Shown here: one piece after another, positions 30,776 through 34,897 of the stretch
Position numbering within the stretch: the stretch's first letter is position 1
How the letters are laid out: each line of letters starts with the position of its first letter
From: Synechococcales cyanobacterium M55_K2018_004
GTDB lineage: Bacteria; Cyanobacteriota; Cyanobacteriia; Elainellales; Elainellaceae
Reading direction: 5' to 3'
Length of the DNA stretch: 45,943 nt
NCBI GenBank assembly: GCA_015295905.1
Contig: DVEB01000096.1
Span: 1-45,943, forward strand
Program-made: the position numbers and the translations under genes
The notes under the pieces: model-generated
The model's input: the letters and a program-made list of their open reading frames with translations, nothing else
Databases searched by the model: none
What the model was told of the DNA's origin: nothing

Positions 30776-32173
30776 TCACGCTTGCCTCTTAAACCGTTCT
30801 TGGGCTGTTTTGAAGGCTTCCTGCATGACGGCTTGGATCTTCTCAGGGTCAGGTTTTATGCCACCCATCAGGTCTCCGAAGTAAACGCAGGCTCCTTCAC
30901 CCAAGGCCCAGGTGTAGGCCGCTGCCCAGGATGCGGCAATGATACTCCCCAGGCCAGGGATAAATTTGATCAGTTCGCGTCCAATCGCCTGTGCCAGGAA
31001 TCCCCCAGCGATCGCGCTCACCACCCCACCGGCCTGAGAAGGCGTCAGGATCTGGCCATACAATTGTCCCAGCAGGCTGATCATCGAGACCTGTAGCGTC
31101 GTCAGCACAGGCATGGTTGCAAAGGGGAGAGGCACTGCCGCAAGTGTCGCTGCCATGATGGAAAAGGCGAGGATGTAACGACGACCGACATCCCGGTAGA
31201 GGTTGCCAATTTGTTTACCCACTTCCCCATCTAACAACTGATGGATCGCGCGAGCCTCAGCTTCTGGTAGCAGGTCAGCCAAGCAGTCACGCAGGCTTTC
31301 GAGGCCGTAGAACACGGGAGTGTAGCCGTCTTCTTCGCGAGTAAAGTCAATCACCAAAGCGCGATCGCACACCCCTTGAAAGTTTGCTTGCAAAGCGGCA
31401 AAAGCCCGCTGCACCGACTCAAGCTGGGGTGGATAGGGGGGATGGTTGTCCGTACTAGACGGATAGACCTCGTGCAGGTTTGTGACTGCCAGCAAACAGG
31501 GAATTTCAGGAAACTGCTGGCGTAACTGCTGAGCAATTTGCCGCAGCGAATCCGTTGCAAAGTCGTTAATTTTGACGGTGAGAATAAAAACTCTCGCACG
31601 ACGCTCACCTTGCCTGAGGTCGTTCGTTAGTTCAGAAACAATCGTTTCAACATTGCGATTGACATCCCCCAACCCAACCGTGTCAGTAAAGATCAACAGA
31701 GGCAAGTCTTCCGAGGGATAGGCATAGCGTTGGGTGTGCTGGGTGTGGGGCCGAAACCCTTGACCCACAATTTCTGCAGAAACCCCCGTGAGCCCCCGTA
31801 TGATGGAACTTTTTCCTGCTTGGGGTTTGCCGATCAGAATGGCCTCAGTGGTCGGCAACTCAGCCCGTACCCGTTCAAGAATCGTCGCGATTTGCTCCTC
31901 ACTGACGCTAAACCACTGCACGACTGTCTGAGCCACTTGGTCGATGGGGAGATGGTTTTTTAGGCTGGCGATCGCCCCCTGCCACACACCAGCCACCTGA
32001 CCCACTACCTGCTCCATCCAGGAGGAATTTTTTGCTGCCACGGGCGGCTGTGAATCGGCCACGTTGAGCGACGAGGATACCACATCCGGAGCGATCGCAC
32101 CTTGCGGGTCTGAAGCTGGCGAGGCATCCGGCGGCGGTTGGGAGACGGCGTTTTTCGGAGGATACTCAAGCAT
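30776..32173 (-). CDS. GTPase with DUF697/YcjF-like membrane domain
   Basis: The 465-residue protein has a disordered N-terminus (about 1-100), a G domain with P-loop GKPQAGKSS (Lys121) and G3 FTDTVGLGD, and a C-terminal DUF697-like part with hydrophobic helices (YILAFSIMAATLAAVP, TLQVSMISLLGQLYG, FIPGLGSIIAASW). The G4 position reads TNLHE (Asn232), where family members have TKxD-like text, so base specificity may be altered. Related proteins are YeeP/YcjX-type or cyanobacterial ERA-like GTPases linked to membrane stress. It is the first gene of a two-gene unit with DUF1361. Confidence 0.85.
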   Translation of the reverse strand: MLEYPPKNAVSQPPPDASPASDPQGAIAPDVVSSSLNVADSQPPVAAKNSSWMEQVVGQVAGVWQGAIASLKNHLPIDQVAQTVVQWFSVSEEQIATILERVRAELPTTEAILIGKPQAGKSSIIRGLTGVSAEIVGQGFRPHTQHTQRYAYPSEDLPLLIFTDTVGLGDVNRNVETIVSELTNDLRQGERRARVFILTVKINDFATDSLRQIAQQLRQQFPEIPCLLAVTNLHEVYPSSTDNHPPYPPQLESVQRAFAALQANFQGVCDRALVIDFTREEDGYTPVFYGLESLRDCLADLLPEAEARAIHQLLDGEVGKQIGNLYRDVGRRYILAFSIMAATLAAVPLPFATMPVLTTLQVSMISLLGQLYGQILTPSQAGGVVSAIAGGFLAQAIGRELIKFIPGLGSIIAASWAAAYTWALGEGACVYFGDLMGGIKPDPEKIQAVMQEAFKTAQERFKRQA

Positions 32174-32799: not shown

Positions 32800-34197
32800 A
32801 TGACTGTTGAAGCTAAAATTTCTCCTGCCTTCAGTGCCTTTCTGTCGGAGAGTGGTCCCAACGATCGGCGCGATGCCATCGTGATTTACGAGGCGCCAGC
32901 GCTCGAGGACAGCCCCGACCCGACGCAGCTCTGGGAGAGTGAGACGCGGCAAAAGTACCTAAAAGAGCGGATCAAAGTTCAGAAATCAGTAGCAGCAGAA
33001 CTGTTCGAGACCTACAAAACTGCTGGCGCGGAGCGATTGCCCGACCACCAACCTCCTGCCGTTAGCAAAATTGGCTCCGGTGCCCTGCCAATTGCAACTG
33101 TTGAGGTGACTCGTAGAACGCTGCCTGCCTTGGCCAAACACCCCAGCGTGGTGGCGATCTTGCCCAACCAAAAGATCCAGCTTATCCGCCCCAGTGCGAT
33201 CGCCTACGACGACCTCAACCGTCAGGAGGCAAAGCAGGGAATCACCTGGGGCTTGCAACAGCTTGGCATCCCCGACCTGTGGGCATACAGCAAAGGGGCA
33301 AACATTAACGTGGCGGTATTGGACACAGGGGTCTTCAGTGAACACCCGGCTCTCCAGGATCGGGTCAAGGATTTTGTGGTGATTGACCCAATGGGGCGAC
33401 GCATCACCGCTGATCCGCCGTTTGACAGTGGGCAGCACGGCACTCACGTTTGTGGCATCATTGCAGGCGGCAAAACGCCGGAGGGCGTTGCGATTGGCAT
33501 TGCCCCCGAAGCAAATCTGCTAGCGGCAAACGTGATGATTGGCGAGGCCACCCTGCAAACCCTGATGGAGGGAATCTCTTGGGCAGTGGAAAAGGGCGCG
33601 CATGTGCTGAACCTATCCCTCGGCTTCATGTACTACGAACCCAAATTTGCCCGGGTGTTTGAGTTGTTGCAAAACCAGTTTAATATCTTGCCTGTTGTGG
33701 CGATCGGCAACGAAGCGCACGGCAACTCTCGCTCTCCTGGCAACGCCTACAGCGCTTTTTCCGTGGGCGCGGTAGAACGAATGTCCCACAATCGCCTTGA
33801 CGTTGCATCCTTCAGTAGCGGAGCCAGCCTTGTCTTCCCTGGGCAAACCGCCTACGCACTGGTCACAAAGCCCGATGTCGTTGCCCCCGGTACGCAGGTC
33901 TATTCCTGCATTCCCCCCCAAGACCAACCTGATGGCAGTTACTACTATACCTACATGGACGGCACTTCAATGGCCGCCCCCCACGTCGCCGGGGTAGTTG
34001 CCTTGCTGATGGCCATCTTTCCTAAGATGCCCGTAACTAAAATTCTACAGGTCTTGAAGGACACTGCCAAGCACCCCGATGGTGAAAGACGTCGCCCCGA
34101 CAACCGCTGGGGCTACGGGCTGATCCAACCGCTGGAGGCATTGCAGGCGCTCAAACATGAGGCGACGCCGCAGGCGGAGCGGGACAAGTCCATCTGA
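32800..34197 (+). CDS. Subtilisin-like serine protease (S8), no signal peptide
   Basis: The 465-residue protein has the catalytic triad Asp175 (AVLDTGV), His213 (GQHGTHVCG) and Ser390 (GTSMAAPHVAG), with oxyanion Asn304 (AIGNEAHGN). Residues about 1-125 form a prodomain-like part (RDAIVIYEAP ... GALPIATVEVTRRTLPALA ... VVAILPNQKI). No signal peptide or transmembrane helix is seen, so it is probably cytosolic or is released by another route. The next gene encodes a free-standing protein that resembles this prodomain. A degenerate R-family repeat begins at the stop codon. Confidence 0.92.
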   Translation: MTVEAKISPAFSAFLSESGPNDRRDAIVIYEAPALEDSPDPTQLWESETRQKYLKERIKVQKSVAAELFETYKTAGAERLPDHQPPAVSKIGSGALPIATVEVTRRTLPALAKHPSVVAILPNQKIQLIRPSAIAYDDLNRQEAKQGITWGLQQLGIPDLWAYSKGANINVAVLDTGVFSEHPALQDRVKDFVVIDPMGRRITADPPFDSGQHGTHVCGIIAGGKTPEGVAIGIAPEANLLAANVMIGEATLQTLMEGISWAVEKGAHVLNLSLGFMYYEPKFARVFELLQNQFNILPVVAIGNEAHGNSRSPGNAYSAFSVGAVERMSHNRLDVASFSSGASLVFPGQTAYALVTKPDVVAPGTQVYSCIPPQDQPDGSYYYTYMDGTSMAAPHVAGVVALLMAIFPKMPVTKILQVLKDTAKHPDGERRRPDNRWGYGLIQPLEALQALKHEATPQAERDKSI

Positions 34198-34273
34198 CGT
34201 TGAAGCCTTGACTTTCTATGGCGTCGTCGTGCATGAAAAATCAGGGGTTTCAGCGTCTCTCAAATTCACGTTA
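34194..34273 (+). repeat. R-family repeat, copy 6 (degenerate)
   Basis: The stretch has TGACGTTGAAGCC at its start, which includes the subtilase TGA, and GGGGTTTCAGCGTCTCTCAAATTCACGTTAG at its end. The inner hairpins are lost. Match to the family is partial. Confidence 0.55.
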
Positions 34274-34286
34274 GGATAGTGTTACA

Positions 34287-34390
34287 CGGAATTCGTTTAT
34301 CAAATAGCAATTTGTTGTGGTGTAAGGTGTGAGCGTAGTGCACGTTTTACACTGCAATAGGTTGACTGAGTGACCGACGGAGTCGGTATC
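34287..34390 (+). repeat. S-family folded repeat, simple copy
   Basis: It begins CGGAATTCGTTTATCAAATAG, has an imperfect hairpin TTGTTGTGGTGTAA ... TTTACACTGCAA and ends ACCGACGGAGTCGGTAT. The same three parts appear in the copy near 11.1 kb. Confidence 0.75.
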
Positions 34391-34413
34391 ATACGGGGGC
34401 AATCAAGCTTACA

Positions 34414-34435
34414 TTGATCGACTCTTGATCGACTC
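34414..34435. repeat. 11-bp exact tandem duplication
   Basis: TTGATCGACTC occurs twice in a row in the spacer upstream of the prodomain-like gene. Confidence 0.85.
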
Positions 34436-34489
34436 ATCAGCCATGTGATCGCCTACTTAGAGCGATCGCTCTTGAAGGAAGTGCTAGTC

Positions 34490-34897
34490 ATGACCGCAGC
34501 AAAGCGTCCTGCTTCGCAAGAAAAACTGAGTTCTACTTTTCGCAAGCGCCTGCAAACGTTGAAACCCCATCAACAGGTGCGAGCGGTCGTGTTGCTGCAC
34601 ACCGAGCCAGTCTCCCCGGCCCAAACGCGGCAGACCGCCTCTGAACGGCAGGCTGCGATCGCTGCTCTACGCAATTCCGCCCAACAGGCATACCAGGCGA
34701 TCGCGCCCATCCTTGAACGCTTCGGCGGCCACCCGCTGGCCAGTCGCCCCAACGCCCTCGGTGCCATTCCGATCGAGATTACTGCCGAGGGAGTGAAAGC
34801 GCTAGCTCAGTCTGACTGGGTGGATGGCATTTTGGAAGATCAACCGATTCAACCCGTAGATGCTGCGATGAACGTGAAGTCGATCACCACCGCTTGA
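34490..34897 (+). CDS. Stand-alone prodomain/inhibitor-like protein (I9-like)
   Basis: The 135-residue protein has no signal peptide. Its layout parallels the N-terminal 125 residues of the upstream subtilase: RAVVLLHTEP against DAIVIYEAP, a helical middle with regular Arg/Gln spacing, then GAIPIEITAEGVKALAQ against GALPIATVEVTRRTLPALA, and VDGILEDQPIQPV against VVAILPNQKIQLI. Such I9-like folds fold and inhibit subtilases. I infer a trans-acting chaperone or inhibitor of the neighbouring protease. ATG 34490 has AAGGA upstream (about 11 bases); an upstream GTG at 34445 is less likely. The family name is not one I can state with certainty. Confidence 0.65.
   Translation: MTAAKRPASQEKLSSTFRKRLQTLKPHQQVRAVVLLHTEPVSPAQTRQTASERQAAIAALRNSAQQAYQAIAPILERFGGHPLASRPNALGAIPIEITAEGVKALAQSDWVDGILEDQPIQPVDAAMNVKSITTA

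Follow-up and report, generated by a model that had tools for sequence, protein, structure and literature searches.

Free-standing propeptide-like inhibitors of subtilases are, to our knowledge, known from eukaryotes only, where they occur in fungi, plants, and malaria parasites, and the intracellular subtilisins (ISPs) carry a short N-terminal propeptide. A literature search, with most subscription journals outside its coverage, returned no description of a bacterial free-standing propeptide-like subtilase inhibitor. In Plasmodium, SUB1-ProM is a stand-alone, subtilisin-propeptide-like protein that is a proven inhibitor and is encoded beside subtilase genes (PMC6993865). Subtilisin propeptides dock through their beta-sheet on two surface helices of the protease, with Glu69 and Asp71 (BPN' numbering) capping the helix ends, while the tail enters the active site; the tail of the PfSUB1 propeptide was reported to be dispensable for inhibition (PMC6993865). 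Among the peptidases of bacterial NACHT/STAND conflict systems, trypsin-like and caspase-like enzymes predominate; neither "prodomain" nor "propeptide" occurs in the account of these systems (PMC7159879).

The locus described here lies in a cyanobacterial contig of 45,943 nucleotides, referred to in full as the window, from an assembly of 5.0 Mb. It consists of a subtilase gene followed on the same strand by a gene for a free-standing protein resembling the prodomain of that subtilase. The following features were assigned:

32800 to 34197, plus strand: subtilase (family S8), 465 aa, from the Peptidase_S8 profile, the catalytic triad, and alignment of N304 (oxyanion)
32815 to 33192, plus strand: I9-type N-terminal prodomain of the subtilase, approximately residues 6 to 131, from KISPAF to VVAILPNQKIQLIRP, by profile and model
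33295 to 34119, plus strand: Peptidase_S8 catalytic domain, residues 166 to 440, by Pfam profile
34198 to 34489, plus strand: gap of 292 nt between the two genes, by repeat search and simple site scan
34490 to 34897, plus strand: free-standing prodomain-like protein, 135 aa, from KLSSTF to VDGILEDQPIQ, with an I9-like fold, by ORF, profiles, and model

The subtilase matched Peptidase_S8 with an E value of 2.4e-47 (162.1 bits against a cut-off of 21.8), which places it in family S8. Its N-terminal piece matched Inhibitor_I9 weakly, near the end of this domain (E 0.013; 16.6 bits, below the curated cut-off of 21.2), in agreement with the first-pass annotation, which had described an N-terminal prodomain-like region. 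With the triad residues D175, H213, and S390, in that order, and the oxyanion residue N304 invariant across 17 aligned full-length family members, the window subtilase is probably active. Both the subtilase N-terminus (MTVEAKISPAF...) and that of the free-standing protein (MTAAKRPASQEK...) are hydrophilic, so that, as had been claimed, no signal peptide was apparent in either by eye. The pair is flanked by a GTPase/DUF697-like gene and a DUF92 gene. The former, at 30776 to 32173 on the minus strand, is the divergent upstream neighbor of the subtilase; its product is a GTPase that matched DUF697 below threshold, and the gene gave no sign of belonging to the pair.

The length of 135 aa for the free-standing protein is counted from an ATG preceded at a short distance by AAGGAAG, which resembles a ribosome-binding site; if translation began at an alternative GTG at 34445, the product would be 150 aa long. 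No match to the protein was found in Pfam (E up to 5) or NCBIfam. Its score for PF05922 did not reach the gathering threshold, and it was therefore rejected as a member of that family. When 60 relatives were searched with the standard I9 profile (PF05922), a single match was returned, within a 510-aa frame, and thus Pfam cannot see this family. The 292-nt gap was thought at first to be filled by repeats. This was not the case: no repeat of at least 12 nt was found, and a single 11-nt tandem pair (TTGATCGACTC, twice) is present at 34414 to 34435. A simple scan of the gap located no promoter-like or terminator-like site.

Direct comparison of the two proteins by BLASTP was marginal (E 0.001), and their likeness was settled by profile searches and a profile-profile match. 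When a profile built from six free-standing relatives was run against the complete genome of the window in six frames, it hit exactly two places, the free-standing gene itself and the subtilase N-terminus (E 5e-5). With hhalign, 18 free-standing proteins matched 17 prodomains with a probability of 97.7 and an E value of 1.6e-12 over 118 columns, from the common KIS-x-x-F start to the last strand. The free-standing profile also gave 24 real prodomains scores of 12 to 36 bits, against 9.2 bits for the best of 4000 shuffled sequences. These comparisons demonstrated that the free-standing protein is homologous to the subtilase's own prodomain. The in-order alignment of prodomain motifs noted in the first-pass annotation was hence not due to chance, and the view that the next gene encodes only a domain of this type was borne out. 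Against PDB sequences, the free-standing profile found no prodomain and the prodomain profile found one doubtful example, 1v6c, which has the PNQ motif in common; the link to PDB prodomains was made through fold comparison only.

The model of the free-standing protein (pLDDT 77, built from six sequences) had the order strand, long helix, strand, helix, strand, as expected of a prodomain fold. The prodomain part of the subtilase model showed the identical order with pLDDT mostly >80; the full subtilase model was good in this part and of low quality in some stretches of the catalytic domain. A Foldseek search given no hint returned ProN-Tk-SP first (E 8.6e-4), followed by Tk-subtilisin and the propeptides of subtilisins E and BPN'. 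By VIA-align, the model matched 3afg with Z 9.7 and an rmsd of 5.7 over 99 residues, and POIA1, a free-standing inhibitor in complex with subtilisin, at rank 3 with Z 6.5 and an rmsd of 2.6 over 72 residues. Z values of 6 to 7 are modest taken alone; the subtilisin-prodomain fold was accepted because propeptides were concentrated at the top of the lists and because of the sequence homology. Further down the VIA list, folds of the ribosomal S6 and MORF type appeared; they were set aside as instances of the common ferredoxin-like fold.

The last strands were compared by eye, ungapped, using KKDPSVAYVEEDHVAHAY of BPN', AQSDWVDGILEDQPIQPV of the free-standing protein, and AKHPSVVAILPNQKIQLI of the subtilase's own prodomain. 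The position of BPN' Asp71 corresponded to D117 in the free-standing protein (Asn in 1 of 18 sequences) and to an invariant Asn, Asn123, in the own prodomain, while that of Glu69 was Leu in both. On this alignment D117 may be read as a canonical docking residue that the free-standing protein has retained. The C-terminal tail of the free-standing protein varies and is nearly absent in Arthrospira, where the protein ends IIEDQDIN; for this reason any real inhibition may depend on the surface of the sheet.

The free-standing gene was intact in 18 cyanobacterial genomes: that of the window, G029, G020, G008, G024, G002, G170 (Phormidium tenue), G089, G542, G556 (Chroococcidiopsidaceae), G600, Nostoc sp. 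WHI, Amazonocrinis, a Nostoc MAG, Anabaena azotica, Fischerella sp. PCC 9431, Arthrospira sp. PCC 9108, and Lyngbya aestuarii. The names for G556 and G170 derive from loci identical in sequence to L056 and L057. The gene before it was a full-length family subtilase in 14 of the 18; of the other four genomes, two had a damaged subtilase there, one had a fragment, and one had none. The damaged neighbors, truncated or split, were in Amazonocrinis and the Chroococcidiopsidaceae MAG, and in A. azotica only residues 273 to 453 of the subtilase were left; some of the breaks may be assembly errors. No family subtilase was found in the genome of Fischerella sp. PCC 9431. Adjacency to a subtilase, damaged neighbors included, was thus observed in 17/18 genomes, and this co-occurrence survey confirmed that the linkage is conserved in cyanobacteria. 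In the tight operons the gaps were 6 to 22 nt; the gap of the window pair is 292 nt. The subtilase itself is rare (in a sample of 390 genomes from the class, 13 had it), and every genome of this sample with an intact free-standing gene also had the subtilase. An alignment-based scan of genome contigs located 12 loci, all cyanobacterial; a single-sequence scan of the contigs returned nothing, and no relatives were found in viral contigs or plasmids.

Two further observations concern individual loci. The orphan free-standing gene of Fischerella sp. PCC 9431 (L055, 4709 to 8429) has a longest ORF that overlaps the end of a gene for a 1078-aa HD-CE/HSP90-like ATPase, which is unrelated to the pair. 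In Arthrospira (L058, 7872 to 8000) and G542 (L068, 2855 to 2974), the ORFs run 5' of the likely MKISPEF start and include a hydrophobic stretch. This probably represents an over-extended start, with a secreted form as the other possibility.

Subtilases lacking the partner fell into two clades of the subtilase tree, one of six genomes (f34) and one of four (f11), which amounts to two changes in total; in all ten genomes the subtilase ORF was full-length with no adjoining free-standing gene. Several genomes of the f34 clade (L062 to L066) had small gene pairs in the position downstream of the subtilase that appeared toxin-antitoxin-like by eye. In G045 and G091 (L045, 5092 to 6726; L046, 257 to 1732), which also have no free-standing gene, a low-complexity insert was present within the catalytic domain before VTFFSSGAS. 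In a tree of the domain, 18 free-standing and 24 prodomain sequences, even the divergent pair of G089, separated cleanly with support of 100/100. The two clean clades suggest one early duplication or split, followed by two losses, as the simplest reading; the tree is unrooted and cannot prove the direction of the split. Distances among free-standing proteins tracked those among the neighboring prodomains (r 0.85; 0.67 without near-copies and an outlier; 0 of 10000 permutations). With median distances of 0.57, 0.55, and 0.33 for the free-standing protein, the prodomain, and the catalytic domain, the free-standing protein has evolved at about the rate of the prodomain, and the catalytic domain more slowly than either. 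The dN/dS values of four close pairs, approximately 0.03 to 0.34, demonstrated purifying selection.

In six genomes a NACHT gene was found directly upstream. Two of them, Nostoc sp. WHI and Phormidium tenue, have a NACHT gene for a protein of 947 to 949 aa (NACHT E 5.7e-17 and 7e-14), with 6 nt between its end and the start of the subtilase and another 15 to 19 nt between the subtilase and the free-standing gene; in four more genomes the NACHT gene was truncated, frameshifted, or partly covered. All placed NACHT loci fell in one subclade of the subtilase tree. Neither the NACHT protein nor the free-standing protein matched PADLOC, and the NACHT protein had no match in the PDB. In G346 (L047, 6772 to 7655), a NACHT remnant (residues 1 to 259) adjoins a free-standing remnant (residues 95 to 121) with no subtilase between them, and an Imm1-family gene lies just upstream.

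The pair of subtilase and free prodomain, conserved in scattered cyanobacteria and sometimes encoded behind NACHT, looks like a protease checked by a dedicated inhibitor. We favor, with moderate confidence, a cognate pair in which a cytosolic subtilase is held inactive in trans by a separate prodomain-like inhibitor. The pair is real and conserved, and the proposed mechanism is likely. The subtilase would fold in the cytosol using its own I9-type prodomain; the free protein would approach from outside, dock on the catalytic domain, and block the mature protease until it is removed by a signal, which in one clade could originate from the product of the NACHT gene directly upstream. The demonstrated homology, fold, conserved linkage, purifying selection, and intact triad support this trans-inhibition, as do the distances that track those of the neighboring prodomain, the Asp at D117, and the precedent of SUB1-ProM, while the variable tail, the blindness of Pfam and NCBIfam, the two clades without the gene, and the 292-nt gap count against it. 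The small protein might instead serve mainly to help the catalytic domain fold, acting between molecules, rather than as a lasting inhibitor. Propeptides of mesophilic bacterial subtilisins are described as both chaperones and inhibitors (PMC10580911), and some members have a short free-standing tail or lack it. However, every full-length subtilase of the set has its own prodomain, two clades do without a helper gene, and the free-standing gene has stayed intact in genomes that lack the subtilase or retain a fragment of it (L055 and L054, which may be recent losses); a helper role is considered unlikely.

The arrangement in the NACHT subclade raises the tentative possibility that the pair is the effector part of an NLR-like anti-phage or cell-death module in which NACHT senses, the subtilase cuts, and the free-standing prodomain prevents misfiring. 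This would be a wider setting for trans-inhibition and not its opposite, with the two-gene form of the window as a core or a derived form. It is favored by the NACHT gene 6 nt upstream of the subtilase in two genomes and its damaged or partly covered counterparts in four more, by the adjoining remnants in G346, and by the patchy presence (13/390) and frequent decay; against it, the association is limited to one subclade and did not extend to the window, and PADLOC recognized neither protein. A role as a defense effector in the NACHT clade is possible. The idea of the first-pass annotation survived both of its own refuting conditions, a structure lacking the prodomain fold and a missing linkage in other genomes. 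The self-contained switch that it proposed became doubtful in part: two subtilase clades lack the gene and in one clade NACHT shares the operon. Those two clades also indicate that the protease can be tolerable without its partner. They weigh heavily against a toxin-antitoxin-like pair whose bearer would die on losing the free-standing protein, since ten genomes have a full-length subtilase and no adjoining antidote gene. The tight operon and the partner genes left intact beside damaged or lost subtilases (L051, L054, L055, and L056) would fit such a pair, but it was rejected for the window and appears very improbable. Least probable of all is a reading of the small gene as a duplication by-product without function. 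It is invisible to Pfam and dispensable in some lineages, yet it has one early origin, is under purifying selection, and keeps invariant residues in the 18 genomes.

Among described systems, the window pair would belong in kind with the free-standing propeptide-like subtilase inhibitors, of which no bacterial form was found in the literature searched. A conserved, side-by-side, apparently cytosolic bacterial pair would show how a cell safely carries a cytoplasmic subtilase. ISPs are likewise intracellular, and their propeptide was reported to be inhibitory (PMC6220982), whereas the window family has a full I9-like prodomain and a second, free copy. IetAS, an anti-phage system of an ATPase and a subtilase, resembles those relatives that pair the subtilase with a P-loop NTPase; in contrast, the P-loop partner is NACHT, in one clade only, and a third, prodomain-only gene is present. 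The PADLOC IetS profile matched the subtilases weakly and over only part of IetS. The window pair was rejected as IetAS, with no IetA ATPase beside the subtilase (the neighbors being the GTPase/DUF697-like and DUF92 genes) and no PADLOC match for the relatives' NACHT; it was rejected as bNACHT because no NACHT gene is present beside it. Bacterial NACHT/STAND conflict systems (PMC7159879; bNACHT, PMC12169576) place NACHT beside a peptidase, as in the six genomes of relatives, where the order NACHT, subtilase, prodomain forms a concrete candidate immune module of a protease effector with a dedicated brake. It could represent a bacterial NLR-like system, a possibility that we put forward with reserve, in which a NACHT sensor frees a cytosolic subtilase from its free-standing prodomain inhibitor, the window carrying the protease-inhibitor core. 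POIA1 of Pleurotus ostreatus (PDB 1v5i) and other eukaryotic free-standing I9 inhibitors have the subtilisin-prodomain fold in common with the window protein. Unlike POIA1, to which it is 15% identical, the window-type gene adjoins its presumed target, and its product has an extra N-terminal KISPEF segment common with the own prodomain of the subtilase. The likeness to SUB1-ProM (PMC6993865) extends to a separate propeptide-like gene adjoining subtilase genes, conservation within a lineage, a predicted I9-like fold, and an incomplete C-terminal tail. SUB1-ProM is eukaryotic, is located in the parasitophorous vacuole, and is a proven inhibitor, whereas the window pair is bacterial, has no apparent signal peptide, and includes a putative inhibitor.
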